Assembly: GCA_022072085.1 (NCBI GenBank)
Contig: JAJVII010000009.1
Coordinates: forward strand, 1 to 64,000
DNA length: 64,000 nt
Source of the DNA: Phycisphaerae bacterium
GTDB taxonomy: Bacteria > Planctomycetota > Phycisphaerae > JAJVII01
Direction of reading: 5' to 3'
Under the pieces are notes generated by a model. That model was given only the letters and a program-made list of their open reading frames with translations. It did not search any database and had not been told where the DNA came from. The translations under genes and the position numbers were made by a program. Positions 5,204-28,340 of this stretch are shown piece after piece. Each line of letters starts with the position of its first letter. Position 1 is the stretch's first letter.

Positions 5204-5370
5204 GGGGCGACAGGTTAACTGCGGTCGGCCAATCAGGCAAGCGCTCTCGGGCTGCCCTCGCTGCCCGGCGAGAGGCGAGCCCTGGCGTTTCGGCTGACGT
5301 GTGCGTATACTCCCACCCGGCTGGCGGATGTCCACGCCGAACACCGCTAGCACACGATCTGGGGTTTGCC

Positions 5371-6943: not shown

Positions 6944-7013
6944 GGCACCGCGATGGGCGTTGCCGAGACTCTTGCCCCGCGTTCCGCAGCCGGGGAAGAA
7001 TGCGGAGACGGAG

Positions 7014-13400: not shown

Positions 13401-13904
13401 CAGTTCGTGGCCGTGGCCAAGGGCGGCGGGGGTGACAAGTTCATCCAGGCTCGCGACCGCATATTCAATGGCTTCAACACACCGCTGCTGCCGGAAATCT
13501 TGATCTGCACCACGGTCGGCCAGGAGGGTATCGACCTCCACCGCCATTGTCGGCACGTGATCCATTACGATCTGGCGTGGAACCCGGCCACGTTGGAGCA
13601 GCGCACCGGCCGCGCTGATCGCATCGGCAGCAAGACGTTCCGCGAGCGATCCCTTGCTGCGGACGGCGCCAAGACCTTCCTGGAAATCGGGGTTCCGTTC
13701 CTAGCCGGCACGTACGACGAGCGCATGTACGAGGAACTGCGTCTGCGTGCCCAGACGTTTGAAGTGTTGACAGGCGGGGAATTCGCGGCCGAGCACGCCG
13801 AGGGCGACGACGACGAAGGTCGCGAGGGTCGGCTTTCGATCACACCCTTGCCGCAGGAAATGCTCCGCCAACTGCGGGTCGACCTACAGGTGTGGCGAGT
13901 ATAG
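10464..13904 (+). CDS. SNF2/HepA-like superfamily II helicase
   Basis: The protein has about 1146 residues. Walker A is DEVGMGKTF, motif II is VDEAHNWKNG, and the C-terminal helicase lobe contains WNPATLEQRTGRADRIGS, which is typical of SNF2/HepA translocases. A long insert between lobes (about residues 640-900) carries no known motif. The GTG start at 10464, with GGAG nine bases upstream and overlapping the PLD stop codon, is preferred over the longer open frame. The size and partner resemble the DISARM helicase DrmD, but DrmA, DrmB and a linked methylase are absent, so it is not a canonical DISARM. Confidence 0.88.
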   Translation: MINVSQQFDLGLDTSRIKDPNDARRQTRTTEEVLQRFFHPRPGKRFELQVLADEVGMGKTFVALATAYSILAHMREGRPESDLDGCYQKVLILTPANSSLFNKWNKEVAEFVRRCVLPRYRDEATSWFTAKKVERLDELVAAVRGDTKRRVLLTNMAILRGAGGKLRHYDLKRRFMLGVLFRFWGNRLGLDERERLLKGAPADWPRDPRWLTKVEYWEQELLPFSEDELLAAVEAFNRRYGDVDSLLDVCREIARPWTWNREGKFDAKGIDNRLIRIYRWSAYQLIRQAFPLLIVDEAHNWKNGPSAGTNGFTEFAEDLAPHVRRALLLTATPFQLRPEEMLEILKVSDHIMPCPTQQESEARRKRLEDFRERTIRPVLKNSEQASKAFTKAWTRLPRKFKTEDLLDAWMMPQVEDARGKLLELADEPGVIGAGDPRFEKAITTALAGMDPDLRPVIREALGLYAFNTDLSREMGSLVIRHRRGTDHRLFRVGCESALPAARVLARPDAHLLHYAPGLDVRGDGELPHYILMRCVSEMKGGKGRSSLGSALTGCYSTLLHSAEGRDVQKRLKDSAVGRVYLDLLMNMVSEDQDADHPKLTRVVQSVLERWRAGEKVLIFCFRVNTADRLRTIIDQHIRTELNDRRRACLGGGDALRTLRARFTGRERDLIGLGLDRVLWSAMWAARARREDAGLFDPRRLRLTGDDLRGLARLSLSCGIDLRGERIDRVFLHRATECVLARRLLRDGPSVGFNHRLLEEAAQEAWVTHPYGLQSEDHVEAEGETPTQGDGAADRAGFDERGVHFVYDPRSGRSGDADALAADLEATRQRARRQGQVALLDAYAEAPSLWLGTRPSEQWAAPDERRAVSIGALHDHLWGLTEQGDGHNWTTRLMVFQALRRALLRESVLLRLLPDRAEREESGWGELLVDAFHREMLGQRESMADRVVVFVEDIRAASGDIREPGSARYAIYDATQLRDQQFVAVAKGGGGDKFIQARDRIFNGFNTPLLPEILICTTVGQEGIDLHRHCRHVIHYDLAWNPATLEQRTGRADRIGSKTFRERSLAADGAKTFLEIGVPFLAGTYDERMYEELRLRAQTFEVLTGGEFAAEHAEGDDDEGREGRLSITPLPQEMLRQLRVDLQVWRV

Positions 13905-13979: not shown

Positions 13980-14396
13980 TCAATTCCGGCGAAGAAACGC
14001 CCGTATCCGATCGGCTACGTGGGGCATTTGCCTCGCCGTGGCCTGGCATTCCCAGATCACCAGCACGCGCCAACCCAGCCGGCGCAACGACAACATGTTC
14101 CGACGGTCGCGCCGGCGGTTCTCATCCAGTTTGCCACGCCAGAACGCAACTCGGCTCTTCGGAATCCGGTCGCCAAGGTCGCACTTGTGCCTGTGCCAGA
14201 AGCAGCCATGGACAAAGATGACCTTCCGTTGTTTGGGGAAGACAAGGTCGGGGCAGCCTGGAAGGCGGCGCACGTGGAGGCGATACCGGAAACCAAGAGA
14301 CCAAACGAGCCGCCGAACGGCGTACTCCGGCTGCGTGTCCTTCGACTTGATCAGAGACATTCGTCGGCTGCGCTCTTCACGACTGAGACTATCCAC
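13980..14396 (-). CDS. vsr: Very-short-patch repair endonuclease Vsr
   Basis: The 138-residue protein matches Vsr throughout: RRMSLIKSKDTQPE near the N-terminus, LPGCPDLVF, VHGCFWHRH and the C-terminal VLVIWEC. Vsr nicks 5' to the T in T:G mismatches made by deamination of 5-methylcytosine. The GTG start lies 1 base after the methylase stop codon, so the two are translationally coupled. The pairing protects the host against mutations caused by its own methylase. It is the last gene of the MORC-type restriction operon, and its 3' end faces the 3' end of the helicase operon. Confidence 0.93.
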   Translation of the reverse strand: MDSLSREERSRRMSLIKSKDTQPEYAVRRLVWSLGFRYRLHVRRLPGCPDLVFPKQRKVIFVHGCFWHRHKCDLGDRIPKSRVAFWRGKLDENRRRDRRNMLSLRRLGWRVLVIWECQATARQMPHVADRIRAFLRRN

Positions 14397-14397
14397 T

Positions 14398-15612
14398 TCA
14401 ACGCTTCCTCGTGGGATTGCAGGCGGCCTTGACGCGCATGGCCTCGACCAAGCGACCGACCACGATTTCGGCCAGTTCCACCGGAACGGCATTTCCTAGC
14501 TGTCGCATCGTTCCCGTCCATGTGCCCTCGAAGACCCAATCATCCGGGAACGTCTGAAGGCGAGCGCATTCCCTGACCGAAAAGTAACGCACGGAACTAT
14601 CGTCCAGCCTGACCATGTTCTCCCCGCCGGGAACGCCATGATCTCCCGCCTTCAGGGTCTTGGCCGGCCAATCCAAGACGGATCCCGTGTGCCCAGCATA
14701 AGCGCGGGCACCCGGGTTCAGGAAATGATTATCGATGGTTCTGGACGTCTGCCCGATGGCAATCCGCGGCAGACTGCTGATCGCATCCCGAACGGTCCGC
14801 CAAGCTCTTGGCAGCATCTTCCGGTCAAGGACGCGGAGTTTCTCGATTCGTCGCTTCAGTCTCGATGGCATCCTTGGCCGCAGCGATTTCGCTATGCCGT
14901 GTCGATCCCAGTACTCCCCAGAGACCCATTGGTCATAAAGAAGGCCATCCTCCGAATGGGTCGATGGGGGGTAGCTGAACTCCATGCCCAGGTCTGACCG
15001 CACGCCAACGATTAGAACCCGCTCTCGCCGTTGTGGCACACCATAGTCGGCCGAATCAAGGGCGGACGGCGACAGAATCTTGTAATGCAGGTCATCGTAG
15101 GTGTCCCCGGTATACAACCTCTCAAGTCGCGGAAGATGGTCCAACCACTCCTCGTCGCCCCGCGGGCCAACGAGCGGAAATCGCAACCGGTGCAGGATGT
15201 AGTTGTAGTACTTTAGGAAACTGCCGCGCAACAACCCCTTGACGTTCTCGAACACGAAGGCCTTCGGCATTATCTCGCGGACTGCGCGAATAGCCTCGGG
15301 GAACAAGTTCCTTTCGTCCTCATGCCCCGCGTGATTGCCGCCAAGAGAAAAGGGCTGGCATGGCGGCCCGCCACACACCACAGCGACCTTGCCTGCATGC
15401 TGCGCAAGATCATAGTCCTCAACCGAACCCTCCACTATCTCCCAGTCGCGTACGAACTTGACGCCATCCTGCTTGTTGCGGCGCAAGGTATCGCAGGCTC
15501 CGGCATCGCGCTCGATCGCCGCAACGTGGGCTAGGCCAGCCCTGGCGGCCCCAAGGGCTAGACCGCCCGCGCCGGCAAATAGCTCAATTGACGTGACCCC
15601 GTTGTCCGCCAT
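14398..15612 (-). CDS. DNA (cytosine-5-)-methyltransferase
   Basis: The 404-residue enzyme shows the C5-methylase motifs in order: motif I ELFAGAGGLALG (residues 10-21), motif IV GGPPCQPFS with the catalytic Cys, motif VI ENVKG, motif VIII QRRERV and the C-terminal motifs IX-X ending in RQLGNAVPV. The variable region between VIII and IX would set the target sequence, which cannot be read from the protein. It follows the 177-residue unknown gene by 17 bases and precedes Vsr. It would mark self DNA for the ATPase and helicase-nuclease encoded upstream. Confidence 0.95.
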   Translation of the reverse strand: MADNGVTSIELFAGAGGLALGAARAGLAHVAAIERDAGACDTLRRNKQDGVKFVRDWEIVEGSVEDYDLAQHAGKVAVVCGGPPCQPFSLGGNHAGHEDERNLFPEAIRAVREIMPKAFVFENVKGLLRGSFLKYYNYILHRLRFPLVGPRGDEEWLDHLPRLERLYTGDTYDDLHYKILSPSALDSADYGVPQRRERVLIVGVRSDLGMEFSYPPSTHSEDGLLYDQWVSGEYWDRHGIAKSLRPRMPSRLKRRIEKLRVLDRKMLPRAWRTVRDAISSLPRIAIGQTSRTIDNHFLNPGARAYAGHTGSVLDWPAKTLKAGDHGVPGGENMVRLDDSSVRYFSVRECARLQTFPDDWVFEGTWTGTMRQLGNAVPVELAEIVVGRLVEAMRVKAACNPTRKR

Positions 15613-15629
15613 GATTCCTCCACCTGCGG

Positions 15630-16163
15630 TTACGCCCCGTTGAGCCAGATCACCTTCTCGATCTTGAGCTTCTTGGCGGCATCCTCGACCATCTCGCGGA
15701 AGGGCCCCTCCTGCATGCGGCCGCCGGCATACATCAGAACCAGGCCAAAGGGCCTTGCCTTCGCCGCCAAGTGGGATCGCTCATGAACCGCCATGATCAG
15801 GTTCTTCCAGTTCGCGGCCAAGCCCCAGCAGAGGATTCTGCCGTCATCAAGTCGCAGGCCGTGTGGCTTTGTGTAGTTCTCCGCCGTCCCCGCCTCCAGT
15901 GGAATTCCCAAGGCCTTGCGCACCCGATTCGGATCCTCGAGGCGATCCAGCACATAGGGCTTCATGATCGTGTCTTTTATGTAGAGCCGGACATTCTGGT
16001 CGGGAATGTATCGGGAGATCACGCCGCCGATATCCCGGTCCCTGCTCCAGTTTTCGTAGTACTGCGTCTTCTGGCGGTCTGGCAACGTGGCCCACTTCAG
16101 GCCATCCGCCAGTGTCCAAAGCTTCTCACGCAGGCCGTCCAACACCGTGTCTGGTAGTTTCAT
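15630..16163 (-). CDS. Unknown 177-residue protein of the MORC restriction operon
   Basis: The gene overlaps the helicase-nuclease gene by ATGA and lies 17 bases before the methylase. The product has no membrane segment or recognised motif. It is rich in aromatic and charged residues (WATLPDRQKTQYYENWSRD near residue 24) and ends EKVIWLNGA. Position suggests a dedicated subunit of the restriction complex, for example a specificity or adaptor protein. This is inference from gene order alone. Confidence 0.65.
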   Translation of the reverse strand: MKLPDTVLDGLREKLWTLADGLKWATLPDRQKTQYYENWSRDRDIGGVISRYIPDQNVRLYIKDTIMKPYVLDRLEDPNRVRKALGIPLEAGTAENYTKPHGLRLDDGRILCWGLAANWKNLIMAVHERSHLAAKARPFGLVLMYAGGRMQEGPFREMVEDAAKKLKIEKVIWLNGA

Positions 16164-17845
16164 TGCACGCTTCCTGGTGGGGGAGCATCCGGATAGTCAA
16201 TCTCCGGAAGCTGAAGCTCCGCGTCGTCCTCCCGAAGAACCAACGACGACTGATCAAGTATCCATTCCTTGAGGAAGCTCCCCGCCGATTGATCGCCAAA
16301 CGACACCAATCGCCCGCCGAGGCCGACGCGCTCCACATCGTCGCCCCTGATGGCCTTATCCAACTCCAAGACCTCCGCGACGCGCCTCAAGTCGGTGACG
16401 AAATCCAGAACCACGACCTTGTCCTTGTCGCGACTGAATCGCAGCCCGCGTCCGAGTTGTTGTACGAAGATTCGGCGGCTATGCGTGACCCGCATGAAGA
16501 TAATCAGGTCCACATCCGGAACATCGACGCCTTCATTGAACAGGTCGACCGTGACGACGATGTCGAGGCGGCCCGAGCGAAACTGCGACATCAACTTGTC
16601 CCGAGTCCGTGGCGGAGTCTCAAATAGAATCACTTCGGCCCGGAATCCATATTGACGAAGCGTTCCGGCGAATGATTTCGCGTGGGCCCCCGATGGGCTA
16701 TAGACGATGGCGCAATGGCGTTTCTCGCCATCGAAGACCTGGCGGACGAGGCGAGCCGCCATGTCATCCCGCGTCGGGATGATCAGCTTGCGGTTGAGCT
16801 GGGAAATCGAGTACTTGTTCCGTGATCGCTGCTGGACGAATTCCCAGTCAATGTTGTCGGCCAGGAGCCGGTAGTCCACCTCGGCCAGGAAACCCTTGGC
16901 TAGGCCCTCGGCAACTCCCAGCCGGACGAGCGCCGGTCCAAAAATGCGATCAATATCGTAGGCGTCTCCGCGCCAAGGCGTGGCCGTGACTCCCGCCAGC
17001 ATCCTAGGCCGCAGGGCGGCGATGGCCTGCAAGAAGGTTTCGGCGCCAGCATGATGGGCCTCATCAACCACGACAAGCCCGAACTGCGGAAGATGCTCTA
17101 GGCGCTGCGTGACACTCTGAATGGTGGCGAAGGTGATGCCATCCCAATACGTGGGCGTCTCGCCCTCGGCAAGTCGGTGAGTGTGGACCCAGCGGGGCAG
17201 CTGGAACCAGAACGCCTGCTGCAACTGGTTGACCAGCGTGACGGTGTGCGCGAGCACGAGAATACGCCCATGCTCCACCCGGTTGTCCCTGAGCAAATCG
17301 GCAACGGTCTCGGCCATGACAACCGTCTTGCCTAGGCCCGTCGCCATCACGATCTGGCCGCGCCCAGTATCGAGCAAGGCCTCCCGCAAACGCGTCGACG
17401 CGTCCTCTTGATAGTCCCTCAGCGTTCGGCGGGCGGGCGCGTACTCCGGGGTCGCCTGCATCCAATTGATAAGAACCGCCGGAACAGCCAGATCGATCTT
17501 CAACCCCAGTCTCTCGTATCGGCTCTTTTCCCTGAGTAGCCCATCCGATGGGGGGCGAGAGCACGCGATGACCAGCTTTTCGGCGTCGTAGAACTCGGCG
17601 GCATTGACAATCTCCTCCACGGCGGAGCTTGGCGGCGGAGAAGCTGTTGTGTGCTTGCACTGAACGACCCAGATCTCGCCTCCACGGGCGGCGAGGATGT
17701 CGGCACCGTGATCACCGGTCCCGGCAACAAGGCGGACGTCCTGGAATCCGTTGGCCAGGAGAAGCCGCGCAACATCCCGCTCGAATGCCTGCCAGGGGCC
17801 ATTCAGCAGTCGGTCGCGTCCCAGGAAGCCGCTATCCTCGATCAC
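16160..17845 (-). CDS. Mrr-like nuclease fused to a DEAD/DEAH helicase
   Basis: The 561-residue protein has an N-terminal Mrr/REase-fold domain (GDHGADILA, then WVVQCKH, residues about 44-65) that supplies the Asp and QxK catalytic residues of this nuclease class. It is followed by a superfamily II helicase: Walker A MATGLGKT, motif II VVDEAHH, motif III TATPWRG and motif VI QQLGRGLR. It overlaps the ATPase gene upstream and the small gene downstream by ATGA at both ends. Known relatives act as the cutting and translocating subunit of restriction systems. Confidence 0.92.
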   Translation of the reverse strand: MIEDSGFLGRDRLLNGPWQAFERDVARLLLANGFQDVRLVAGTGDHGADILAARGGEIWVVQCKHTTASPPPSSAVEEIVNAAEFYDAEKLVIACSRPPSDGLLREKSRYERLGLKIDLAVPAVLINWMQATPEYAPARRTLRDYQEDASTRLREALLDTGRGQIVMATGLGKTVVMAETVADLLRDNRVEHGRILVLAHTVTLVNQLQQAFWFQLPRWVHTHRLAEGETPTYWDGITFATIQSVTQRLEHLPQFGLVVVDEAHHAGAETFLQAIAALRPRMLAGVTATPWRGDAYDIDRIFGPALVRLGVAEGLAKGFLAEVDYRLLADNIDWEFVQQRSRNKYSISQLNRKLIIPTRDDMAARLVRQVFDGEKRHCAIVYSPSGAHAKSFAGTLRQYGFRAEVILFETPPRTRDKLMSQFRSGRLDIVVTVDLFNEGVDVPDVDLIIFMRVTHSRRIFVQQLGRGLRFSRDKDKVVVLDFVTDLRRVAEVLELDKAIRGDDVERVGLGGRLVSFGDQSAGSFLKEWILDQSSLVLREDDAELQLPEIDYPDAPPPGSVQ

Positions 17846-20181
17846 TCCGCATCTCCCGATCCCGAGGCGGGCGCGAGCATGTCCACGGCGAGCGCGGCAC
17901 GCATTACACGTTCCCGGCTGGCATCGTTAAGCTCGTCCGATGACCGCGCGGCCAGCCAAGTGGCGTCGCTGAGCAGCGCCGAGTAATCACCCACCAATCT
18001 CCTCCACGCCATCTCCGTAGCGCCCTGGCTGCCGAAGTCTAGCGATGCATATCGCTCGTCCCAGTACTTGCCATCAAAGAACAACTCCGGATGACTCTGG
18101 AAGAACTCTAGTAATGTCGCCCACGAGGCGTATTCAAGAAACCGACCCTGATCGATTGCCGCCTGCGGGTCGGAGACCGCCTTGGCGGCCATGCGACGCT
18201 GAATCTCCTCCTGCTCACTAGGCGACAAGGCATTGAACAGTGTGCGCCCATCCCCAGGCGAGAGATTGGCCTTCAGGCTCTTTGCCACCCGCGTCAAGGC
18301 CATTCCCGCCTCACTGGACAGCGTGACGGGATCAAGTTCGTTGACGCCACCGTACTTGCCCCGCAAGCTCGCGAGGATTGCCGCGAAGGAATGGCCGCTG
18401 CCGCTATCACGTTCAAAGTCCATCGCCGACCATGCCAACTGCGCCAAGAGGCCATCCAGAGGCGTCATGGTCATCGACCGGAATACTGGATGCCTGGCGT
18501 TCACCAGAAACTCGTAGTAACCTTGAGTTGAACGGCCGAACCCCCAAGGGCTATCCGCAGTGCCCAATCCTACGTCGGAGGATTCCACATCGAAGGCCCG
18601 CACATCCCATCGTTGGTTTGTCAGGTCGTCCCTGTACTCCTGTGTAAGCGATGCAATTGGCTGGCGCGTGGGAGGTTGCGGCGCTGATGGCGAAGGAGTC
18701 GGTCCTCCGGGCCCTTCGGGCGATGGCGTTTCCGGCGCTGCCGGGGACAGCGGCCCCAGGCCGCCTCCATCCGTATCCGGCGGGGTGAGAAGAACGTTGT
18801 CTGCTTCCTGCACGAGCGCCCACCAGGGCTCATCCGTTTGCCACTCCGCCTCGCCTGCGTAGAACCGCTTCGCCATTTGCGAGGCGCGATCGTTATCGGG
18901 AACAATGAGCAGTTTCGCGTAGCACCCCGCGACCTTTGGCTTCGGGCTTGACCTCCTGAAGCACTGAAAGAGCTTCGACAGCGGGGACGTATTCACCGGA
19001 AGGCCCGCCTGCTGCGCCTTGTCCGGCCTGAGCGGCCCCTCGCCACGCACCACCTTCACCATGTCTTCCCACGCGGGGTCCTCTCGCTCAAATCGGTCCT
19101 TTGTGTAGCTGACTCGGCAGTGGTCGAGATGAATCTCGCCGACGATTCTTCCTCGGTTCCGGGGGTCGTCGATTGGATACTCAAGTTCCTGGGATTCGCC
19201 GTTGTCCCAGTAGAACAAGTCCTTGTTGCCGAGTTCGAGTTTTCGGCCATTGCGGATGAAGTCGATGCCATAGCCTTCCTGGCTCAAATACCGCTGGATG
19301 CCAAGCCAACCGTGAATGTGTCTGTCTCGCATCACGAGCGCGCCGACTGCCCCGCAGATCGGGCAAGCGTCGCTCATCTGCGTCAGCCACTGCCAACACC
19401 GTTGACAGAACGGTCGGCTGGGCAGATGCGTATCGACGGGTTGAATCGCGCTCAGGATTCCGTGGCGGGAAGACTCGACCGTTCTACCGGCACCCCAAGC
19501 GCAGTGATTGCGAGGAGCCACGATGCGACCGTTTAGATAAAGCCGGAACGTCATCGGTTGACCATCCTGGCGGAGCATCGCCGAATACACTTGGCCCAGT
19601 ACCTGGGTCAACTGCGTTCGGTTCGACGCCCTGGCGAACCATTGCGACTGCTCTGGCTTCAACCTCAGGATGGAGACCTCGACGCCGCTCTCGGTGGAAT
19701 CCGGTTTCGGCCGGGTGAGTTCAGGTGTCCGGAAACTGCCCTGCCGAATCAGTTTCTCGAAATCTATTTCCAGCCCGCGCCATTGCCCGTCGCCCTTCTG
19801 CGTTGCCCAGACTTGCGTGACCAGCCCGAGCCGAGCAGTGGCGATATTGAATCCCATGCCGAACAGGCCCAGGTGCCGGATGGGATCGTTGCTGGTCCAG
19901 CCCGCACGGACCGCCTTCTCCAATGATTCGCGGCTCATGCCCGGGCCATTGTCGCGGACCGAGATCCGTGATTGCTCTATGTCCGCGGTGGGCACCGTAA
20001 CGTGAACTTCCGGCTCGGCGCAGGGGTTGCCGCCTCGCTGGCAGCGGAGGAATCCATCGATGGCATTGTCAACAAGCTCCGCTAGGCACCGCCACTGACG
20101 CAGGTTGATTTCGCCGAGCATCGGAAGGATTCTTGGGTCGGGCTGGAGGTCGAAGTCAGGCCCCATGTTCTGTTCCGCCAT
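17842..20181 (-). CDS. MORC/Hsp90-type GHKL ATPase of a restriction system
   Basis: The 779-residue protein opens with a GHKL ATPase fold: N-box LAELVDNAIDGF, G1 motif RDNGPGMS and G2 motif LFGMGFNIATARLG, all within the first 140 residues. The rest holds a second ATPase-associated lobe, a CPIC/CQRC pair that could bind zinc (near 255-280), and a long C-terminal region after a Pro-rich linker. Prokaryotic MORC-like ATPases linked to C5-methylases and helicase-nucleases were described by comparative genomics as ancestral to eukaryotic MORC. The ATG at 20181 has AGGAG eight bases upstream and is first in a five-gene operon. Confidence 0.88.
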   Translation of the reverse strand: MAEQNMGPDFDLQPDPRILPMLGEINLRQWRCLAELVDNAIDGFLRCQRGGNPCAEPEVHVTVPTADIEQSRISVRDNGPGMSRESLEKAVRAGWTSNDPIRHLGLFGMGFNIATARLGLVTQVWATQKGDGQWRGLEIDFEKLIRQGSFRTPELTRPKPDSTESGVEVSILRLKPEQSQWFARASNRTQLTQVLGQVYSAMLRQDGQPMTFRLYLNGRIVAPRNHCAWGAGRTVESSRHGILSAIQPVDTHLPSRPFCQRCWQWLTQMSDACPICGAVGALVMRDRHIHGWLGIQRYLSQEGYGIDFIRNGRKLELGNKDLFYWDNGESQELEYPIDDPRNRGRIVGEIHLDHCRVSYTKDRFEREDPAWEDMVKVVRGEGPLRPDKAQQAGLPVNTSPLSKLFQCFRRSSPKPKVAGCYAKLLIVPDNDRASQMAKRFYAGEAEWQTDEPWWALVQEADNVLLTPPDTDGGGLGPLSPAAPETPSPEGPGGPTPSPSAPQPPTRQPIASLTQEYRDDLTNQRWDVRAFDVESSDVGLGTADSPWGFGRSTQGYYEFLVNARHPVFRSMTMTPLDGLLAQLAWSAMDFERDSGSGHSFAAILASLRGKYGGVNELDPVTLSSEAGMALTRVAKSLKANLSPGDGRTLFNALSPSEQEEIQRRMAAKAVSDPQAAIDQGRFLEYASWATLLEFFQSHPELFFDGKYWDERYASLDFGSQGATEMAWRRLVGDYSALLSDATWLAARSSDELNDASRERVMRAALAVDMLAPASGSGDAE

Positions 20182-20429
20182 CGGTCCCACTCCTGATCTT
20201 GAGGTCGCGATTTCGGCCGTGGTCTCGGCCGCCGGACTCAGCGCTTCCCGCCGCCATGCCGGGCGAGAACGCGGCCTTTCAAGTGGCCACAGGCGCATAC
20301 CACCCGCCAGCGGGGAAGCTGGCGGTGATTATGCGCTACTCGGCTTTCACGATCAACGGGCGACATTTGCACGCCGCGAGGACGGTCGGGCGGCAGCCTG
20401 TATTCGGCCCGGCCCGGGCCACCTATTCG

Positions 20430-21227
20430 CTAGGATCGCAATGCCGGCAGTTCCACGTCCTCATCGCGGTAGCCCTGCCACGCACGCAAAAGGTCATGCG
20501 TCCAGTAGGTGTTCGGCTGGCCGTGCTTCCGTGGGCTCGCCAGCGGCGGCATGGTCACTGTCTTGTGCCGAGCAGCGGCCAACAAAGCTCGCTTTCGATA
20601 CATGCGGTAATCCTTCTTCTTCGCCTCGCAAAACCGGGCCATGAAGGCATCTACCGTGATCGGCTCGTTCGGCACGTCCGGCCATTGCGCTGCCTGGGGC
20701 GAGGCGGCTGGCGAGCCGGGCCTGTCGATGGGGGCGTCATCAGCCATCCTGCATCCCACCGAGCCTCGCCCCGGCTGCTTTGGCCGTTCAGACGATCCGG
20801 TCGACTGCCGCCGGGCCTCCAGCGCGTTCATCGCCTCGGTCACGGCGACCTCAACAGTTCTGGTCTGGTCCCAGAGGTCCTTGGCCAGGAAGAAGGTCAG
20901 GCCGTCGTTCTGAAAGTCTCCCGCGAAATTCCACGCCTCGACGGTATGGCTGGTCATGATGATGATCGCAACCTTGCCCACGCCCTTGATCTTGAGGATC
21001 TGCTGGAACAGGCTCACGCCGTTCTGGATACGGGGGTCCCCGCCGCGACTGGAAGCCGGAATCCGCAGGTCCAGCAGCACATAATCAAAGTCCTTGGTCG
21101 CCAGCAGCTTGCGGGCGTCCTCGTTATTGCCGGCCACTTCGAACTTGTGCTGGAGCGAGTGCTCGAGGATTTCGCCGACGTACTCCAGGACGTCCTTCTT
21201 GTCATCCACCACCAGAGCTCGCGGCAT
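20430..21227 (-). CDS. Response regulator, REC domain with novel C-terminus
   Basis: The 265-residue protein begins MPRALVVDDKKDV. The acidic pair is at 8-9, the phospho-acceptor Asp is in YVLLDLRIP near residue 49, and the conserved Lys is in FFLAKD. After a Pro-rich linker the C-terminal 80 residues (DAFMARFCEAKKKDYRMYRK onward) match no output domain I know. They include a basic segment and LLRAWQGYRDED, which could be a small winged-helix or protein-binding module. The start overlaps the kinase gene, and GGAGG sits 5 bases before the ATG at 21227. It is the last gene of the ATPase-kinase-regulator set. Confidence 0.85.
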   Translation of the reverse strand: MPRALVVDDKKDVLEYVGEILEHSLQHKFEVAGNNEDARKLLATKDFDYVLLDLRIPASSRGGDPRIQNGVSLFQQILKIKGVGKVAIIIMTSHTVEAWNFAGDFQNDGLTFFLAKDLWDQTRTVEVAVTEAMNALEARRQSTGSSERPKQPGRGSVGCRMADDAPIDRPGSPAASPQAAQWPDVPNEPITVDAFMARFCEAKKKDYRMYRKRALLAAARHKTVTMPPLASPRKHGQPNTYWTHDLLRAWQGYRDEDVELPALRS

Positions 21228-22374
21228 GGCCTCCTCCACTGATTGTTCGAGGCAGGACGATGGTCATGGTCGTGCCCTCTCCGGGGGCACTGGCCGCGAC
21301 CAGTTCACCGTCATGAATCTCCACGTAGTTGCGGGCGATCACCAATCCGAAGCCCGACCCGCCGTCCTTGGTCGTCCGCCCGGGCGTGAACAGTTCGTTG
21401 AGTTCGGCAGGCTCCAAGCCCGGGCCGTTGTCCTCGATCACTATCGCCACTTCGCCGGCGTTGATGGCCTTTCCGGTCAGGACCACATGCGGCTGAGAAG
21501 CCATCGCCGCCGCGTCGAAAGCGTTGGACAGGACGTTGAAGATTGCCCGCTCCAGTTGCGGCTCTGTGACGTAGACGACCAGCCCCTGCTGCACGTCCAC
21601 GTCGAGGTCGACCCGCGACCAACCGGGTTTCGATGTCGCCAGGTCGGCAATCCGGGCGGCTGCCGAGTGGACCAGCCCATCCAGTGATCTGACGGACGGG
21701 CGGGTGGGCGTGGCCCGCGACCGGGCATACTCCAGCATCTGCTGGACGAGGTAGCTGTAGCGCCCCAGGATGCCGCCGACCTTCTCCAGCGACGCGAACG
21801 CTGTAGCCGGATCATACTCGCCATTGAGGATCGCCTGGCGCAAGGCGGCGACCCGGCCCTGAAGAACACTCAGATCGTTCTTCATCTCGTGGGCCAGATT
21901 GCTCGCCAGGGCCATGTGGTAGGTCTCGCCTATCCGCATCGCCGTCCTGGCGACCTCATCGCCGTGGCGTTCCCTCAGGTGCTGGTATAGCTCCAGCACC
22001 AGGTCGATCCCCTGAAGCTTCTGCCTGAGTGCCGATTTCACCTTGCGGCGGCGGTTTCGGCTGACCTCCGCCGCCCGGCTTACGAAGGCGTTGGGGTCCT
22101 GGCGGAGCTTAGCCGCCAGCGGCTCGAAGTCGCCTTGGCGCACGTAGTGCAAACCGTCGGCGATTGCCTTCCGCACTTCCCACTTCGGGTCGTCGGCCAG
22201 CAGGTTCAGCAGCGGGACCATCACCGCCTCGCGGTCAACGACCCCGCCGGCCCGGAAGACGGCCATCAACTGCCTGGCACAGGCGAGCCGGTCCAACCAG
22301 GGCAGTGCCTCCCGGTCGGCGGTCAACAGACGCAGCGATTCCGGCAGGTTGAGGATTTCAGCTTCGGTATCCAT
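21202..22374 (-). CDS. Soluble histidine kinase with HEAT-like repeats
   Basis: The 390-residue kinase has no transmembrane segment. Residues about 25-115 form helical HEAT-like repeats (VPLLNLLADDPKWEVRKAIADG and the following FEPLAAKLRQDPNAFV). The phospho-acceptor box NLAHEMKND has its His near 162, and the HATPase domain has N-box NVLSNAFDAA, G1 EDNGPGL and G2 GSGFGLVIA. Its ATG shares two bases with the ATPase stop codon (TGATG), and its end overlaps the regulator start. A cytoplasmic sensor coupled to an SMC-like ATPase would read an internal signal such as DNA damage or ATPase state. Confidence 0.88.
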   Translation of the reverse strand: MDTEAEILNLPESLRLLTADREALPWLDRLACARQLMAVFRAGGVVDREAVMVPLLNLLADDPKWEVRKAIADGLHYVRQGDFEPLAAKLRQDPNAFVSRAAEVSRNRRRKVKSALRQKLQGIDLVLELYQHLRERHGDEVARTAMRIGETYHMALASNLAHEMKNDLSVLQGRVAALRQAILNGEYDPATAFASLEKVGGILGRYSYLVQQMLEYARSRATPTRPSVRSLDGLVHSAAARIADLATSKPGWSRVDLDVDVQQGLVVYVTEPQLERAIFNVLSNAFDAAAMASQPHVVLTGKAINAGEVAIVIEDNGPGLEPAELNELFTPGRTTKDGGSGFGLVIARNYVEIHDGELVAASAPGEGTTMTIVLPRTISGGGHAASSGGG

Positions 22375-24257
22375 CAGATCCGGTATCGCTCCTTGCGCTT
22401 CATGAAGGCTTCCTGCCCGCCCTCCAGCAGCCCGATGATCTCTTCGCGGCATTCGTCCACCGTGCCTTCCCTGGCCTTGACCGCCCTCGCGCCATTGGAC
22501 CGCAGAACAAAGACCCGCTCGGCATCGCCCAGCACCGGGATGTTGGGGTTGTGCGTCACGAACAGCATCTGGCGGCGGCCCTTGGCCTTGCGGATGCAGT
22601 CAACCACCGTGTCGTAGATGAACCCGTTGTCCAGGTTGTCCTCGGGCTGGTCGATCAGCAGCGGGTTGTCGCTGTCCAGCAGCAGGATCGGCAGGATCGT
22701 GGTGCATTTCTGGCCGGTGGACAGGGACGTCGAATCCTTGTACTCCTCGCCGTCGAGCAGCTCGATCCGCGGCTTGTCGTCCAGTTCGATGGTCTCCAGG
22801 CGGAACATCATCTTCGGGCCGGCGAACGCCGCCACCACGTTGCTGGCCTGGTTGGGGTTGAGCGTCGCCCGCTCGATCATCGACTTGGTATCGCCGGCGG
22901 CGACCATCGCGGCCAGTTCACCGGGCGAGAGGTTGTCGGCGACCTTCTGGGCCACGATGTTCCGGTTGACGCCCGCGCCGGCCAGGGCCTCCAGGAGCAG
23001 TTCCCGGTACCGCGACGGGTCGCCGAACTGGGCAACGCTGACCCGTATCCGGGGTGCCAGCCGGTCGGTGATACGGGCGGCAACCTTGCGGCGGAAGGCG
23101 AACCGCTCATCCCGCAGCGACGAGAGCTGACCGAGCAGCTCAGCGCGCTCCTTCTGGAGACGCTGGAGGGACTCGGTGTGCTCATCCCGGACCCGCTTCT
23201 TCTCCAGCAACTGGTTCCGCAATGTCTCCAGCCGGATCCGTTCGGCCTCCTGCCCCTTGGCCTGATCGTGGCGGGCCAGTTGCTCGCGGAAGGCCAGTTC
23301 CTGCTCGGCCTGGCTGGTCGCCAGTTCCCCGCCGATCTCCGCCAACCGGTCCTGGGCCCGGACGATGCGGTTGCGGGCATCCTCGATCAGCCGATCAACA
23401 TCGCCGGAGCAGGCGGCCAGTTCGTCGCGGATCTGCTGGAGGAGATGTCCGTTCGGCCCGGCGAGCATCTCGCTGCTGAAGGCCGCCGACACCCGCTTGG
23501 CGATCCCGCCGACGAGGCCATCCAAGGAGCCGGCGAAGGCGTTCAGTGCCTCGTCGGCGGCGGTCGCCGCCCGGCGCTCGCGGTCGCGCATTGAGTTGAG
23601 TTTGTGGGCCTGGTTCAGGGAGGCCGAGCCGTCGCCGTTCCTGGCCGCCAACGCCTTGAGCTTGTCCTGGATGCCCGGCAGGGTGCTCAGTTCATCGCCC
23701 ACGCTGTCCAGCGCCTTGCGCACATCGATGATCTTGCCCCCGTTGGCCGAGAGCCTGGCCTCCACCTTCCGAATCGCCGCGTTCACCCGCTGGACATCGT
23801 CCGGGACGAAGTTGTCGATCAGGGACAACTGCGAGCCGGGGTCGTCGGCGATGCCTTCAATGTCGTTCTGGCTGTAGATGTCGGCGCGGAACACGCCGCC
23901 GTTGGCCAGGGTCACCTCGCTGGGGCTGCCGGAGGCGTCCATCACGATGGCCGCGCCCCCCGCCGTACGGTCGACCACGTATTCGATGCCGTCCCTGGTC
24001 TCGATCCGCAGGCGAATCCGGCCCGCGCCCAGGTTATCGGTGACCAGGGAGTCGAGCCGCTTCTGCACGCCCGCGGCCTGTTTGCCGGCGGACGAGTCCA
24101 GTGCATGCCGGACGTATTCCAGGGCGGTCGTCTTGCCGGCGCCCCGGGGGCCGATCAGGCAGTTGAGGCCCTCGGCCAAGTCGATCTCCAGGCCGTCCAG
24201 GAAGCCCCCGACGACCGACAGCGATTTCAGCTTGTGGCACTTCTTCCCATTGTTCAC
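22374..24257 (-). CDS. SMC/RecF-like coiled-coil ABC ATPase
   Basis: The 627-residue protein has an N-terminal ATPase half with Walker A GPRGAGKTT (residues 36-44) and a central region with coiled-coil character (about 180-370, heptads rich in Glu, Arg and Leu). The C-terminal half has the signature SLSTGQKC, Walker B PLLIDQPEDNLDN and switch His FVTHN. This is the SMC/RecN/RecF plan, seen in many defence ATPases. The frame stays open upstream to 24761, but the GTG at 24257, with AGGAG seven bases upstream, is clearly the start. It leads directly into the kinase gene. Confidence 0.88.
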   Translation of the reverse strand: MNNGKKCHKLKSLSVVGGFLDGLEIDLAEGLNCLIGPRGAGKTTALEYVRHALDSSAGKQAAGVQKRLDSLVTDNLGAGRIRLRIETRDGIEYVVDRTAGGAAIVMDASGSPSEVTLANGGVFRADIYSQNDIEGIADDPGSQLSLIDNFVPDDVQRVNAAIRKVEARLSANGGKIIDVRKALDSVGDELSTLPGIQDKLKALAARNGDGSASLNQAHKLNSMRDRERRAATAADEALNAFAGSLDGLVGGIAKRVSAAFSSEMLAGPNGHLLQQIRDELAACSGDVDRLIEDARNRIVRAQDRLAEIGGELATSQAEQELAFREQLARHDQAKGQEAERIRLETLRNQLLEKKRVRDEHTESLQRLQKERAELLGQLSSLRDERFAFRRKVAARITDRLAPRIRVSVAQFGDPSRYRELLLEALAGAGVNRNIVAQKVADNLSPGELAAMVAAGDTKSMIERATLNPNQASNVVAAFAGPKMMFRLETIELDDKPRIELLDGEEYKDSTSLSTGQKCTTILPILLLDSDNPLLIDQPEDNLDNGFIYDTVVDCIRKAKGRRQMLFVTHNPNIPVLGDAERVFVLRSNGARAVKAREGTVDECREEIIGLLEGGQEAFMKRKERYRI

Positions 24258-24546: not shown

Positions 24547-25584
24547 TCAATACACGATCTGGTCGTCTGGCGGGTTCCGCCGACTCCGCCGGCGCGACGG
24601 CGGGGCGATGCCCGGCCCGTCGGCACGGTCGCGGTCAGTCCGGTCGTTCGGGAACGCGCACAGGTGAACGCACACGTCCTCGGCGACGAGGGCCTGACCC
24701 ACGACATCCTCGGCCTCAAAGCGCCAGTCCTGGCCGACGCCCACCGTCGGGCACGGCACACAGTCGATTTCGCCGAGGTGCTCGAGCAGCGCCGAGGCGC
24801 CCTTGGCGCTGAACTGGATTGACTTCTCCCCTGCCTCCCGGCGAACCATCGCGTCCAGGGCGTAACCCGTCACCAAGCGGGGCCAGATGCGCTCCAGCGT
24901 CGCCGGGCGGTCGAACAGGTCCAAGGCGGCGAACCGGCCGTTGATGGCGACGACGACGCCCCGCGATCCGGCCCGGTAGCTCAACGCCTCGACGTAGCTG
25001 CCGATGGACTCCCGCCGGTGCTCCACTACGTCGTGCATGGCCATCGTGGGCGACGGCACGGCGGCTGCCTCGACGTTAGCGGCCACGGCATCCCAGACCG
25101 CCCCCTGATCGCTGCGGGCCTGGCCTTCGGTCCGCAGGTTCCGCCCCACGTCCCGGCTCTTACGTGCCCGCAACATCGCCGGTGAGTAGCTGCCGGCGGC
25201 AAACGCGGCCGACGTGTGGTGCCAGCGGCCCTGCTCGACGCACGACACCGGAATCTTCGTTTTGCTCCTGGCCGGCAGCAGGACCGTGGTGTTCAGGATG
25301 CGGTTCTGCTTGGCGCCGACCAGCTCCTCGCCGTCCAACAGCAGGATCAACCGCTCGCCGGCGTTGGACGCCAGCAACTCAGGCACGCTGCCGCCCTCGC
25401 TGACTTCGGTCACGGTGAGCTGGCCGGCGGCGATGGCGTCGGCGGCAAGGACGTATTCGAGACGCCCGGGCCCCTCCCCCCCGAGGGGCACGAGCGTGAG
25501 GTTGCGATGGCCGAACGGGTTGCCGGCCGAAATGGTCTCGATAAACGGCTTCAACGTCCGTGTTGGTTGTCTGGTCTGTGTCAC
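24547..25584 (-). CDS. DUF6569-like (ARPP-1-type) protein
   Basis: The product has about 345 residues. It opens with a hydrophobic block (LTLVPLGG), then LLLLDGEELVGAKQNRILN, a strongly conserved signature of the ARPP-1/DUF6569 family, and PVSCVEQGRWHH. The family is associated with conflict and stress operons, but its biochemical activity is unknown. The GTG at 25584 has AAGGAG six bases upstream and is a better start than the ATG at 25590, which abuts the same site. It begins about 10 bases after the HIRAN gene ends. Confidence 0.75.
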   Translation of the reverse strand: MTQTRQPTRTLKPFIETISAGNPFGHRNLTLVPLGGEGPGRLEYVLAADAIAAGQLTVTEVSEGGSVPELLASNAGERLILLLDGEELVGAKQNRILNTTVLLPARSKTKIPVSCVEQGRWHHTSAAFAAGSYSPAMLRARKSRDVGRNLRTEGQARSDQGAVWDAVAANVEAAAVPSPTMAMHDVVEHRRESIGSYVEALSYRAGSRGVVVAINGRFAALDLFDRPATLERIWPRLVTGYALDAMVRREAGEKSIQFSAKGASALLEHLGEIDCVPCPTVGVGQDWRFEAEDVVGQALVAEDVCVHLCAFPNDRTDRDRADGPGIAPPSRRRSRRNPPDDQIVY

Positions 25585-25594
25585 GGGCATCTCC

Positions 25595-26011
25595 TTATGC
25601 GGTCGGTTCGGCCGGCGTCGCCGGCCCTGTTGCCTCAATGCGAACCTGCACGCGCACCGCCTCCCACGGCGGCGCGTTGGCATCGATTCGGGTGATCAGG
25701 CATCGCGCGAGCACGTCCTGCTGGAGCAGCCTGGAGACCGCCTCGTTGTGCGTCCGGGGCAGATACCCCAGGCGGCTCCCGCAATGCTCGATGCGGACCG
25801 CCCACGGGTCGTGCGGGTTTTCAGGCTCTGCGATCAGCTTCACCTCGTCGCCGACCTGCAAATAGGCCATGATGTCCGGGCCGTCGTGGTAGCGAAACCC
25901 GGCGATCTGGCACTCAGCCAGGACGCAGGAACCACGCCCGTGCTCCTCGGCGAGCCCTTTGGCCAGCATCTGGCCGAGGGCCTCTTTCTGTTGGTGTCGT
26001 GCTGGGTTCAT
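25595..26011 (-). CDS. HIRAN-domain protein
   Basis: The 138-residue protein is almost entirely a HIRAN domain: AECQIAGFRYHDG, LQVGDEVKLIAEPENPHDPWAVRI and GSRLGYLPRTHNEAVSRLL. HIRAN domains in HLTF/Rad5 bind single-stranded DNA 3' ends at stalled forks, and stand-alone bacterial versions sit in DNA-stress and defence operons. GGAG lies 5 bases before the ATG at 26011. A palindromic operator-like site (26070-26091) lies directly upstream, so this gene may begin its own transcript within the cluster. Confidence 0.88.
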   Translation of the reverse strand: MNPARHQQKEALGQMLAKGLAEEHGRGSCVLAECQIAGFRYHDGPDIMAYLQVGDEVKLIAEPENPHDPWAVRIEHCGSRLGYLPRTHNEAVSRLLQQDVLARCLITRIDANAPPWEAVRVQVRIEATGPATPAEPTA

Positions 26012-26069
26012 GTTCTCTCCGTCACCGCCCCAAGACAGCGGCCTTCTGAAGACAAGTATCCGACAGGGG

Positions 26070-26091
26070 TGCGACAGGTGTGGTCGCACCC
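26070..26091 (-). promoter_or_regulatory. Palindromic operator, copy 2 (upstream of the HIRAN gene)
   Basis: The core tgcgacaggtgtggtcgca is an inverted repeat, TGCGAC-N7-GTCGCA, followed by CCC. An identical 22-base sequence occurs at 27187-27208. Each copy lies in an intergenic gap upstream of a minus-strand gene of the same cluster. The WYL repressor encoded at the head of the cluster is the natural candidate to bind it. Confidence 0.7.
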
Positions 26092-26095
26092 GTCG

Positions 26096-27106
26096 CTATT
26101 TCAGCAATTCGTTCTGCTCCCACCGGTGGTCGGTCTTGAAGCTCGAAGCCGAGACGTACAGCGGCTGGCCGGGTCGCAGGCCCCACAGGTCGAAAAGAAT
26201 CCACACGGCATCGTCAGCCGCCTCCTGCTCCTGGCCATAGTCGTAGCGCTTGCCGACCGGATCGAACTCGACGATCTGGACCACGTTCGACACGTCGGCG
26301 TCAGGCTTTTCCGCCTCGCGATAAAAGCCCGGCCGTTCCTGGACCAGCCGCTCGGCCTCCCGCGGCAGGATGTTCGTGTTGGGGATATCTACGGCGAACC
26401 AGTCTTCGTGGAAGCAGAGCTGGATCATCCGCCGCAGGGGCTGCTGCTTGCCGAATGTTCCCTGCTTCCGCCGGGCCTTCCTGCCGGAGGCCTGGTCGGA
26501 AAACACGATGAAGCAGTGCGACCTGGCCTCGTTGTTGGCCCGGTCCTTCATCCGGCAAAGGTAATCGGCGATCAGGGCGGTTACTCGTTCGCGTGTGGCA
26601 GGATCATCGGCCGGGTCTGGCTCCGCGTCCGGGTCGTCCGCGGGCTCTTCTCTGGCCGGGGCGTCTGCTTGCTCGATGGCCTTGCGGGGACTCAGCTTAC
26701 CGAAGGCCACCGACATCAACGCCGGCAGGTAGTGATCCATGATCGAGAATCCGCAGAACGCCAGCTCACGCACCATCGCCCGGGACAGCCGGTCCTTCTT
26801 CACCGCGATGCTGTTCTTAAAGCGGACCTCGCCGTCGCGAAAGTCCAGCTCGAAATTGCCCAGCGACAGGCCGTAGTTGGCCAGCGTCAGGAACTCGGCC
26901 ACAGCCAGGCGGCGGTTGTTCGGCACGTTGAACTGGCAGATCGAGTAGCTCAGGAACAGCGTGTCCTTCTCGTTCCAGGTTGCCATCCAGACCCAGCGGC
27001 CGGTCTCGCCACTGACCAGCACCCGCAGCCGGTGCTCGTCGAGCTGCTCCCAGTGCCACTCCATTTCGCGCAGGAAACTCTGCACCGCGTCAGCAATCGT
27101 CGGCAT
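26096..27106 (-). CDS. YbjN-like (type III chaperone-fold) protein
   Basis: The 336-residue protein has an N-terminal domain resembling the YbjN/type III secretion chaperone-like fold: a helix (IADAVQSFLREMEWHWEQ), strands with GRWVWMATWNEKDTLFLSYS, then NVPNNRRLAVAEFLTLANYGLSLGN. This is followed by an acidic Pro/Asp linker (about 155-180) and a second unknown domain ending WEQNELLK. GAGGAGG precedes the ATG at 27106. It is first behind the operator at 27187-27208. YbjN-like domains in defence operons are thought to hold partner proteins; function here is unproven. Confidence 0.7.
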   Translation of the reverse strand: MPTIADAVQSFLREMEWHWEQLDEHRLRVLVSGETGRWVWMATWNEKDTLFLSYSICQFNVPNNRRLAVAEFLTLANYGLSLGNFELDFRDGEVRFKNSIAVKKDRLSRAMVRELAFCGFSIMDHYLPALMSVAFGKLSPRKAIEQADAPAREEPADDPDAEPDPADDPATRERVTALIADYLCRMKDRANNEARSHCFIVFSDQASGRKARRKQGTFGKQQPLRRMIQLCFHEDWFAVDIPNTNILPREAERLVQERPGFYREAEKPDADVSNVVQIVEFDPVGKRYDYGQEQEAADDAVWILFDLWGLRPGQPLYVSASSFKTDHRWEQNELLK

Positions 27107-27186
27107 GGTGTCCTCCTCGGCGGGGGTGTTCACGGGCGGCGATGGCCGCCTCTATCTACCCGCCAAGAACAACACTACAGGAGGGC

Positions 27187-27208
27187 TGCGACAGGTGTGG
27201 TCGCACCC
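27187..27208 (-). promoter_or_regulatory. Palindromic operator, copy 1 (upstream of the YbjN-like gene)
   Basis: It is identical over 22 bases to 26070-26091, with the same TGCGAC-N7-GTCGCA inverted repeat. It lies 80 bases before the start of the YbjN-like gene and just after the stop of the WYL repressor gene. Exact conservation of an intergenic palindrome in two places, with unrelated flanks, points to a protein-binding site rather than chance. Confidence 0.7.
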
Positions 27209-27244
27209 TTGGCGATCTCCATTTGGATCAGCGCAGTGGGTTGT

Positions 27245-28261
27245 TCAGTCGGCGAGCTTGGCGGGTGTATGGGGGCAGTTGATACCGTAGGCGCCGCACG
27301 TGGCCTTCAGTTCCGACTGGATCGCCGCGGCCAGGGACTTCGGGGATATGATGGTCGCCTGGCCGCCGAAACCGAGAATCCACCGGCGGAACTCGGTCGT
27401 ATCCGACAGCTCGAACTCGGCCACGACGCCGTCCTTGGTGTCCTTGACGATCTTCTGGCTGGTGTGCCAGCGCTGCTCGCGGAGACTCGTGGCCGCCCAG
27501 CCAGTGAACCGGGCACGGATCGTCTGGAACTTGCTGGAGGTGAAGATGCCGAAACTGCCGTGGGTGTAGGCGCGGAGCGAGAAGTTGGACGGCCGCTCGA
27601 AGACCTGGGCGGTCATCTGGACGCCGACGATCCGCGAAACCTTCAGCGTGCGAACCTCACCGTACTCCACCAGCAGCCCGATGCAGTAGAGGTTCGTGCC
27701 CAGGAAGACCAGGCCGTAAGGATGGAACGTGGCGTCGAAGTCCTTGCCCTTGCTCAGCGAGTGGTAGCGGACCTTGAGCACGCGGCCCTCGGCCATCGCC
27801 TTGTTGATGATGGCGATTTCCTTGTCCTTGCCGGAGTAGTCCTGGCCGGGCAGGTTTTTGACCAGCAGCGTGCGGTCGTCGAAGAAGTGGCCCAGGGCGC
27901 TCTTGGGCAGCAGGGCCTTGATCTTCTCCAGCGCGGTGTTCAACCCGTCGCCGAACTGCGTGCCGGCCAGAGGCGCCAGGAGCTGCTGGCTGAGGTAAAG
28001 GCTGAGCATCTCGGTCATCGAAAGCGTCAGGCCGTCGTGGTCAAGGGCCTTGGCTTCGAGCCGCCAGAACCGCTTGCCGTACTCGCCGGTCTCGTGGAAA
28101 ACAGGAAAACCGATCTGCTGGAGCACGTTCAGATCGCGCTGCACCGTGCGTTTGCAGCACTCAAGCCGCTTGGCCAGATCGTCCTCCGTCTGGCCGAAGT
28201 GAAACGCCTGGAGCGTCTTGAGCAGGTTCCACTGACGGAATAACGGTTCGGCACGTGCCAT
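27245..28261 (-). CDS. WYL-domain transcriptional regulator
   Basis: The 338-residue protein has an N-terminal winged helix (DDLAKRLECCKRTVQRDLNVL, residues about 28-48) and a WYL domain (VRYHSLSKGKDFDATFHPYG, then NLYCIGLL, about 180-215), followed by a C-terminal WCX-like extension. WYL regulators bind nucleic-acid-like ligands and repress phage-defence operons such as BREX (BrxR) and CBASS (CapW). The gene heads the cluster. The twin palindromes at 26070-26091 and 27187-27208 are likely its operators. Confidence 0.92.
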   Translation of the reverse strand: MARAEPLFRQWNLLKTLQAFHFGQTEDDLAKRLECCKRTVQRDLNVLQQIGFPVFHETGEYGKRFWRLEAKALDHDGLTLSMTEMLSLYLSQQLLAPLAGTQFGDGLNTALEKIKALLPKSALGHFFDDRTLLVKNLPGQDYSGKDKEIAIINKAMAEGRVLKVRYHSLSKGKDFDATFHPYGLVFLGTNLYCIGLLVEYGEVRTLKVSRIVGVQMTAQVFERPSNFSLRAYTHGSFGIFTSSKFQTIRARFTGWAATSLREQRWHTSQKIVKDTKDGVVAEFELSDTTEFRRWILGFGGQATIISPKSLAAAIQSELKATCGAYGINCPHTPAKLAD

Positions 28262-28267
28262 GCGGCC

Positions 28268-28296
28268 ATGTTAAGCGAGGAGATCCGGCTGGGCAA
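28268..28296 (-). promoter_or_regulatory. Promoter of the WYL regulator, possibly leaderless
   Basis: On the minus strand TTGCCC (28291-28296) and TAACAT (28268-28273) are 17 bases apart. The predicted start of transcription falls at or next to the ATG at 28261, and no ribosome site is visible, so the message may be leaderless. Confidence 0.4.
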
Positions 28297-28340
28297 CGGG
28301 AAAGCACCGGCAGAACAGGCGCCAAGACTGAGTTGCACCG

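Follow-up and report, generated by a model that had tools for sequence, protein, structure and literature searches.

The WYL control known in defence is local repression, and the known WYL activators serve DNA repair. DriD of Caulobacter crescentus is a WYL activator triggered by single-stranded DNA (ssDNA), and its known targets are the DNA-damage genes didA, bapE, recJ and dnaG, not defence systems. As given in PMC12340889, its sites read ATACGAC-N7-GTCGTAT, overlap the -35 position and stand at a constant distance from the -10 box; in the published promoters the -35 is poor, and the gap to the -10 box looks, by our own reading, like 11-12 nt. The PafBC / RecA-NDp promoters of actinobacteria need no -35 box and are written tTGTCRgtg-8 nt-TAnnnT in PMC5656591, and their regulator has a WYL-WCX architecture. 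PafBC is a heterodimer with a non-palindromic site and other targets. SiwR of Mycobacterium smegmatis, another WYL activator, has an imperfect palindrome of 19 bp ahead of the -10 box, and its operon is reported in PMC10693628 to lose induction without R38/R42 or R204/R207, residues of the recognition helix and the WYL domain, respectively. It differs from the case presented here in a GGA triplet at -26 and in DinB-type targets, with one operon known.

Among the defence-linked WYL proteins, CapW reportedly represses. BrxR is described in PMC9122601 as a repressor, with a repeat of 11-bp arms and a 5-bp spacer that lies downstream of the -10 box. Both resemble the present case in having a WYL fold, a place in phage-defence loci and inverted repeats as (here predicted) binding sites, yet they are repressors that act on their own locus, with another repeat geometry and much weaker sequence similarity. 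Clusters centred on ARPP, in which ARPP occurs with HIRAN, WYL factors and YbjN-type chaperones as it does here, are predicted to be anti-viral by Iyer, Burroughs and Aravind (2022; PMC9503650); for these, the accessible portion of that paper gives no operator, and it proposes the WYL/Nudix factors of ARG-centred systems as negative regulators. The Gac/Rsm pathway of Pseudomonas, as presented in PMC11888443, likewise places many defence systems under one pathway, but is not a WYL activator promoter. The timing and coordination of many defence systems within one genome is largely an open question.

The window analysed here is a stretch of 64,000 nt from a Phycisphaerae bacterium (GCA_022072085.1, contig JAJVII010000009.1, positions 1-64,000, forward strand). 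A sequence-only reading had noticed an identical 22-bp palindromic site, with unrelated flanks, in the gaps before two minus-strand genes, and had proposed it as the operator of the neighbouring WYL regulator. Scanning the window recovered TGCGACAGGTGTGGTCGCACCC at 26070-26091, in the gap from the stop codon of YbjN (26096) to the ATG of HIRAN (26011), and at 27187-27208, in the gap from the stop codon of WYL (27245) to the ATG of the YbjN-like gene (27106), all genes being on the minus strand; both copies are thus where they had been placed. The flanks are not wholly unrelated, as each copy has a -10-like box 12 nt after TGTC in gene direction. Exact matches to TGCGAC-N7-GTCGCA in the window are limited to these two copies, with four further matches of two mismatches each. 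Given that shuffled sequences also yield about six half-site matches when mismatches are allowed (mean 6.28, against six in the window), only the exact identity of the copies is informative at this scale.

The two copies, being identical, might have belonged to a small repeat dispersed over the genome, which the earlier reading had named as a refuter. In the whole own genome (G000; 5,487,003 bases), the half-site pattern occurs at these two places only, with no match for the reversed control, and no third copy of the 22-mer was found at up to three mismatches in the whole 5.49 Mb. A looser promoter pattern, GACC-N4-YTGTCR-N12-ANNNT, has three matches in the genome, all within the window (reversed control, 1). 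The genome-wide copy counts rule the repeat out, and its probability is practically nil. The features of the locus are presented in Table 1.

Table 1. Element sites and genes of the island, in window coordinates.
Feature	Position	Strand	Remarks
Site A: element and -10 box GATACT (26060-26055)	26055..26087	-	matrix score 37.3; holds copy 26070-26091
Site B: element and -10 box TAGTGT (27177-27172)	27172..27204	-	matrix score 33.0; holds copy 27187-27208
Site C: element and -10 box GATAAT (6920-6925)	6893..6925	+	score 34.1; third and last genome-wide match
WYL-WCX regulator, N-terminal winged HTH (HTH_11, WYL, WCX)	27245..28261	-	
YbjN-like protein	26096..27106	-	ATG 27106, RBS GAGGAGG; ortholog in same place in L142
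HIRAN-domain protein	25595..26011	-	ATG 26011; longer ORF would begin within site A
ARPP-1 (PF20208, E 1.9e-92)	24547..25590	-	directly behind HIRAN gene
SMC/RecN-like ATPase (AAA_23; PADLOC Ppl/LmuB-like)	22374..24257	-	element directly before it in G392 and G158
HEAT-repeat histidine-kinase-type ATPase	21202..22452	-	
Response regulator	20430..21239	-	
GHKL-type ATPase	17842..20298	-	
Mrr-type nuclease fused to ResIII/DEAD helicase	16160..17845	-	
C5 cytosine DNA methyltransferase	14398..15612	-	
Vsr mismatch endonuclease	13980..14492	-	last gene of leftward run
459 aa ORF, family unassigned	6960..8339	+	first gene behind site C; likely ATG ~7015
PLD-domain protein (ZacB/DrmC-like)	8336..10471	+	
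SNF2-type helicase (PDC-M27C/ZacC/DrmD-like)	10374..13904	+	end faces Vsr

Judged from its homologous sites, the element is more than a bare palindrome: it is a promoter cassette, asymmetric and equipped with a -10 box of its own. In gene direction, its conserved part reads GACC-N4-CTGTCR; a -10 box (xAxxxT) comes exactly 12 nt downstream of TGTC, and a -35 is lacking. Across 62 unique homologous sites, GAC and GTC vary hardly or not at all, the C that follows GAC is invariant, the CT ahead of GTC almost so, and the right flank reads R-Y-A. Beside WYL/ARPP-1 genes the orientation never varies: read along the gene, GACC precedes TGTC. No sigma-70 -35/-10 pair was found in 25900-28500, where the -35 position falls inside the element. 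As the 21 training sites of the matrix contained the -10 box, the -10 conservation among the 62 sites is partly circular, and the ten loci of one spacing test had been picked after they showed matrix matches. A count on 90 unique GACC-N5-TGTC cores was relied on instead, for which all loci retrieved solely by protein homology were used, whether or not a box was present: xAxxxT stands at offset 12 in 42 of them, against an average of 3.57 and a maximum of 9 at the other 23 offsets. In loci whose WYL protein has at least 44% identity, the box is at offset 12 in 29 of 49 cores, and the maximum at other offsets is 6.

The outer arms of the palindrome pair at chance level in the 62 sites (32 of 62 at the first position against 30.1 expected, and 21 against 30.3 at the fourth). 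A plain symmetric operator was rejected on this lack of covariation and on the ends of the N7 spacer, which are conserved and asymmetric (GACC, CTGTC). The same arms bear on an RNA hairpin (acting within one operon as a terminator, an attenuator or an intergenic processing site), which would account for site A folding strongly as RNA (z -4.35) directly 3' of a stop codon. Site B, however, folds no better than shuffles (z -1.12), there is no T run, no Rfam family scores above its cut-off, and sites also occur within divergent promoters. Since the arms pair only at chance, a hairpin is excluded as the general function, and it was rejected here as highly improbable.

Taken as promoters, site B is predicted to serve the YbjN-like gene, and site A probably serves HIRAN/ARPP-1 and probably the genes behind them too, while site C, 19 kb away, would front the PLD/helicase operon. 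The leftward run of sites A and B extends from YbjN through Vsr (27106 down to 13980), the rightward run of site C comprises the 459-aa protein, the PLD protein and the SNF2 helicase (6960 to 13904), and the convergent runs meet at 13904/13980; from gene spacing, each run would be one transcript. The three copies of the element in the genome lie at the outer ends of these runs and face each other across a defence island of 20 kb (6893-27204). In the window, the predicted regulon would be the island itself. The predicted regulon is larger than the two genes of the earlier reading, given the third site and the sites found before defence genes of other genomes.

In comparison with DriD, the element has the same GAC-N7-GTC core, sits at the -35 position at a fixed distance from the -10 box, and lacks a good -35; the driD promoter also shares GACC...CTGTCGCA. 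The core of the matrix scores the published driD-promoter site above all 500 shuffles, but on the weaker didA and bapE sites it comes near the shuffles' 4-8% tail, with the best bapE match off the expected site. In comparison with PafBC, the order of TGTCR, 12 nt and TAnnnT is found here as well, the published tTGTCRgtg-8-TAnnnT amounting to the same gap of 12 nt as in the Phycisphaerae element. PafBC has paired or fused B and C proteins and a non-palindromic site, whereas the locus has a single WYL gene and its sites keep an inverted half, GACC, conserved upstream. The Phycisphaerae element would thus work like a PafBC promoter without being one, and it combines DriD's two-sided site with PafBC's spacing.

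The WYL protein points in the same direction. A profile of 22 orthologs run against the PDB gave DriD at 1.4e-18, PafBC at 2e-18 to 8e-14 and BrxR at 0.0054, which does not place it in the BrxR/CapW family by sequence. With a predicted model of uncertain domain placement (pLDDT 77.6, pTM 0.44), Foldseek ranked DriD first at 1.9e-17, PafBC at about 1e-15 and BrxR/CapW at about 5e-8. The HTH-WYL-WCX chain is closest to DriD among PDB entries, over its full length, although at about 20% identity and in another phylum; it seems to be the same kind of protein as DriD, not a proven ortholog. The recognition-helix residues R38 and R42 and the WYL-pocket residues R204, K207 and R210 are invariant in the 22 orthologs, and in a wider WYL set R42, R204 and R210 remain invariant and R38 nearly so; R38/R42 and WYL arginines are also what SiwR requires.

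On the direction of control, a repressor operator, at which WYL would keep RNA polymerase out until an infection signal lifts the block, has in its favour the repression by BrxR (PMC9122601), the negative regulation proposed for ARG-type clusters by Iyer et al. (PMC9503650), and the overlap of the site with the place expected for a -35. CapW, too, is said to repress. The site has no -35 box, though, its gap to the -10 box is that of PafBC promoters, DriD and PafBC are nearest by sequence and fold with BrxR far behind, and the BrxR repeat differs in arms, spacer and position; repression is accordingly considered unlikely. Because of this similarity and spacing, the missing -35 and the different build of BrxR repeats, we favour WYL as an activator, and the geometry fits the DriD/PafBC type of activator rather than the BrxR/CapW type of repressor.

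WYL orthologs at E<=1e-50 are present in 42 of the 397 genomes of the class, and ARPP-1 also in 42 of 397. A scan of the genome contigs with a single WYL protein found nothing, while a profile scan did find WYL. Two WYL orthologs are present in the complete genome of 'Planctomycetes bacterium syqfu' (CP087563.1). The closest comparison is locus L142 (Phycisphaerae CSMAG_2510), whose WYL protein is 65% identical and whose order is WYL, site, YbjN (39%), site, ARPP-1 (57%). Conservation between its gaps and those of the window is concentrated in the element and the -10 box, e.g., TGCGACCACnnCTGTCnnACCCCTGTCGGATAnT. In L152 (G158), three separate sites precede ARPP-1, WYL and an operon of SMC, kinase and response regulator, the SMC and kinase genes being homologous to those of the window. 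Of the 22 named loci with WYL identity of at least 44%, 21 have a site scoring 15 bits or more (L159 is without), many of these loci being from species that also gave training sites under G-genome labels, and such sites are rare where WYL is distant. Sites outside the training set are those of L145, L147, L149, L150, L157, L162, L163 and L164.

With the strict pattern, 34 matches were obtained in the 42 genomes with WYL (reversed control, 3) and 22 in the 355 genomes without it (control, 13). A match is present in 20 of 42 genomes with WYL and in 20 of 355 without (Fisher 9e-12). It is absent from 22 of the 42 and present in 13 of the 21 with the closest WYL. These comparisons support the 22-mer as a predicted WYL operator, by the sites beside orthologs, the positions in L142 and the co-occurrence with WYL. 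The prediction that the YbjN-like and HIRAN genes start separate, co-regulated transcripts gains from the same two positions in L142. As for the palindrome expected in homologous loci, a related element does stand beside WYL orthologs, but the outer arms are a local feature of the window.

The element could be a real promoter read by something else, be it a special sigma factor or a different WYL protein, which would make the WYL neighbour a bystander. Further WYL genes are present in the own genome, 8 of 39 strong sites lie in genomes without a WYL match at E<=1e-50, and some genomes with WYL have no strict site. Set against this are the sites next to the WYL gene in all but one of the 22 close loci, the co-occurrence mentioned above, and a covariation of helix and site with one exception: the helix RQVLRD pairs with TGTCAGA sites in L006, L158, L160 and L161, other helices go with TGTC[AG][TC], and L151 (helix RQILRD, TGTCATA) departs from the rule. 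The covariation is only suggestive of WYL as the reader, three of the four loci being relatives, and another reader is held to be quite improbable.

Our preferred explanation, which we regard as likely, is that of a WYL-bound activator promoter of the DriD/PafBC type that marks a trans-acting defence regulon; the operator idea of the sequence-only reading is thereby upheld and extended, the 22-mer being most likely a WYL binding site inside an activator promoter. A dimer of the neighbouring WYL-WCX protein would occupy GAC-N7-GTC, from about -37 to -25 and in place of the -35 box, and would hold RNA polymerase on the -10 box 12 nt downstream, as with DriD and PafBC. To judge from these two regulators, the trigger would probably be single-stranded nucleic acid in the WYL pocket, such as that arising from DNA damage or phage replication. 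Once switched on, WYL would start transcripts at YbjN and at HIRAN-ARPP-1, reading on into the SMC, kinase and restriction-modification genes, and would also start the PLD/helicase operon 19 kb away. In related genomes, the same element stands before CRISPR-Cas, BREX and restriction-modification genes, so that WYL looks like a trans-acting switch. What the comparisons establish is the element with its fixed spacing, conservation, spread and association with the WYL gene, together with the genes behind it; binding, activation, the ligand and operon read-through are predictions.

The genes behind the element were surveyed among 56 class-wide pattern matches, of which 39 score at least 19; 15 of the 39 are in WYL/ARPP-1 loci and 24 elsewhere. 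A gene was counted as defence when, among the first two listed genes, it carried a Cas3 Pfam domain or matched PADLOC at 1e-25 or better. On this definition a defence gene is first or second behind 12 of the 24 strong sites outside WYL/ARPP-1 loci, a tally in which the gene choices were ours and not blind. The genes are Cas3c-Cas5 (G141), Cas3g (G194), Cas3_HD twice (G292), Cas9 (G235, gap about 400), PglX (G366, gap 468), a type IIG restriction-modification gene (G116), a type I methylase (G174), a C5 methylase after a YbjN-like gene (G069), HKD-Snf2 (G256), SMC/Ppl (G392) and PDC-S05/RhuM (G198). Some gaps between site and gene are 300-650 nt, long for a promoter. Adding the window operon (PLD second, helicase third) and the weak cases G018 and G301 brings the count to 15. 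The nine strong sites without a defence gene, which were searched to unequal depth, are G198:C193, G134, G026:C323, G164, G292:C239 (LigT), G052 twice, G292:C181 (for which a distant ORF was searched against Pfam only) and G049.

As decoys, the same 42 genomes gave 10 matches, all within ORFs, with a defence gene in one of nine neighbours searched (BrxC). The difference between 12 of 24 strong sites and 1 of 9 decoys has a Fisher value of 0.056, the decoy set being small. Strong sites were found at 5 of 25 Cas3 loci in genomes with WYL and at 0 of 23 in genomes without (Fisher 0.05). The proposition that all CRISPR loci of genomes with WYL have the site was rejected, since only those five Cas3 loci do, and neither Cas3 locus of the own genome has a strong site. 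Strong sites also precede genes that are not obviously defence, namely DUF1294 (G049), a LigT phosphoesterase (G292) and a DUF697 GTPase (G052), and in L189 one precedes a 527-aa SpoIID-domain protein beside WYL.

We tentatively advance, at slightly less than even chances, a broader reading in which the defences of Phycisphaerae form a regulon: a damage-sensing WYL activator would work in trans, unrelated systems would share a promoter cassette of about 31 bp, and ssDNA would be the likely alarm. The systems comprised are CRISPR-Cas types I-C, I-G and II, BREX, and type I and IIG restriction-modification, together with PLD-helicase and SMC/kinase modules and ARPP-1 clusters. No report of such a regulon was found in the literature searched, a search with subscription journals mostly outside it. 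If true, this would give bacteria a counterpart of interferon-stimulated response elements, joining WYL activation to defence. It would offer an exact promoter signature with which any genome can be scanned, new defence genes to be found by their position behind it, and ssDNA as a testable signal for switching on. The DriD/PafBC activation mechanism would extend to Planctomycetota and, from single loci, perhaps to other phyla: sites were seen in contigs of candidate division CSSED10-310 (before DnaB-like and IetA-like genes), Verrucomicrobia and Methylomirabilota (L164, L210 and L216), which indicates that the element is not confined to Phycisphaerae.

Several further arrangements of the element were observed. 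Upstream of ARPP-1 in L040, L043, L047 and L025, tandem elements stand 46-47 bp apart, with the better -10 box on the downstream copy; the upstream copy may be an auxiliary binding site. Back-to-back, outward-pointing pairs lie upstream of WYL in L147, L149, L152 and L153, which suggests autoregulation together with a divergent partner gene. A matrix scan found no element upstream of the window's own WYL gene. Strong sites occur near the gene of an RtcR-like activator (L274, G134; further down) and before a LigT 2H phosphoesterase (L124, G292), a hint that RNA-repair genes belong to the regulon.

As to the island, PF20208 lies next to the HIRAN gene and in the neighbourhood of WYL, as in ARPP/WYL immune clusters. 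ARAGORN found no tRNA as an island boundary; at the left end, an rve_3 transposase ORF (4112-5848) and an HNH nuclease ORF (5197-6144) lie on opposite strands. Behind ARPP-1 and the SMC-kinase genes, the GHKL ATPase, Mrr-helicase, C5 methylase and Vsr (13980-20298) form a cluster of restriction-modification type. The SMC-like ATPase, HEAT-repeat kinase and response regulator travel together (20430-24257 in the window, and L137 and L152), with the element directly in front in two other genomes, and this trio may be an as yet uncharacterised defence module that uses two-component signalling.
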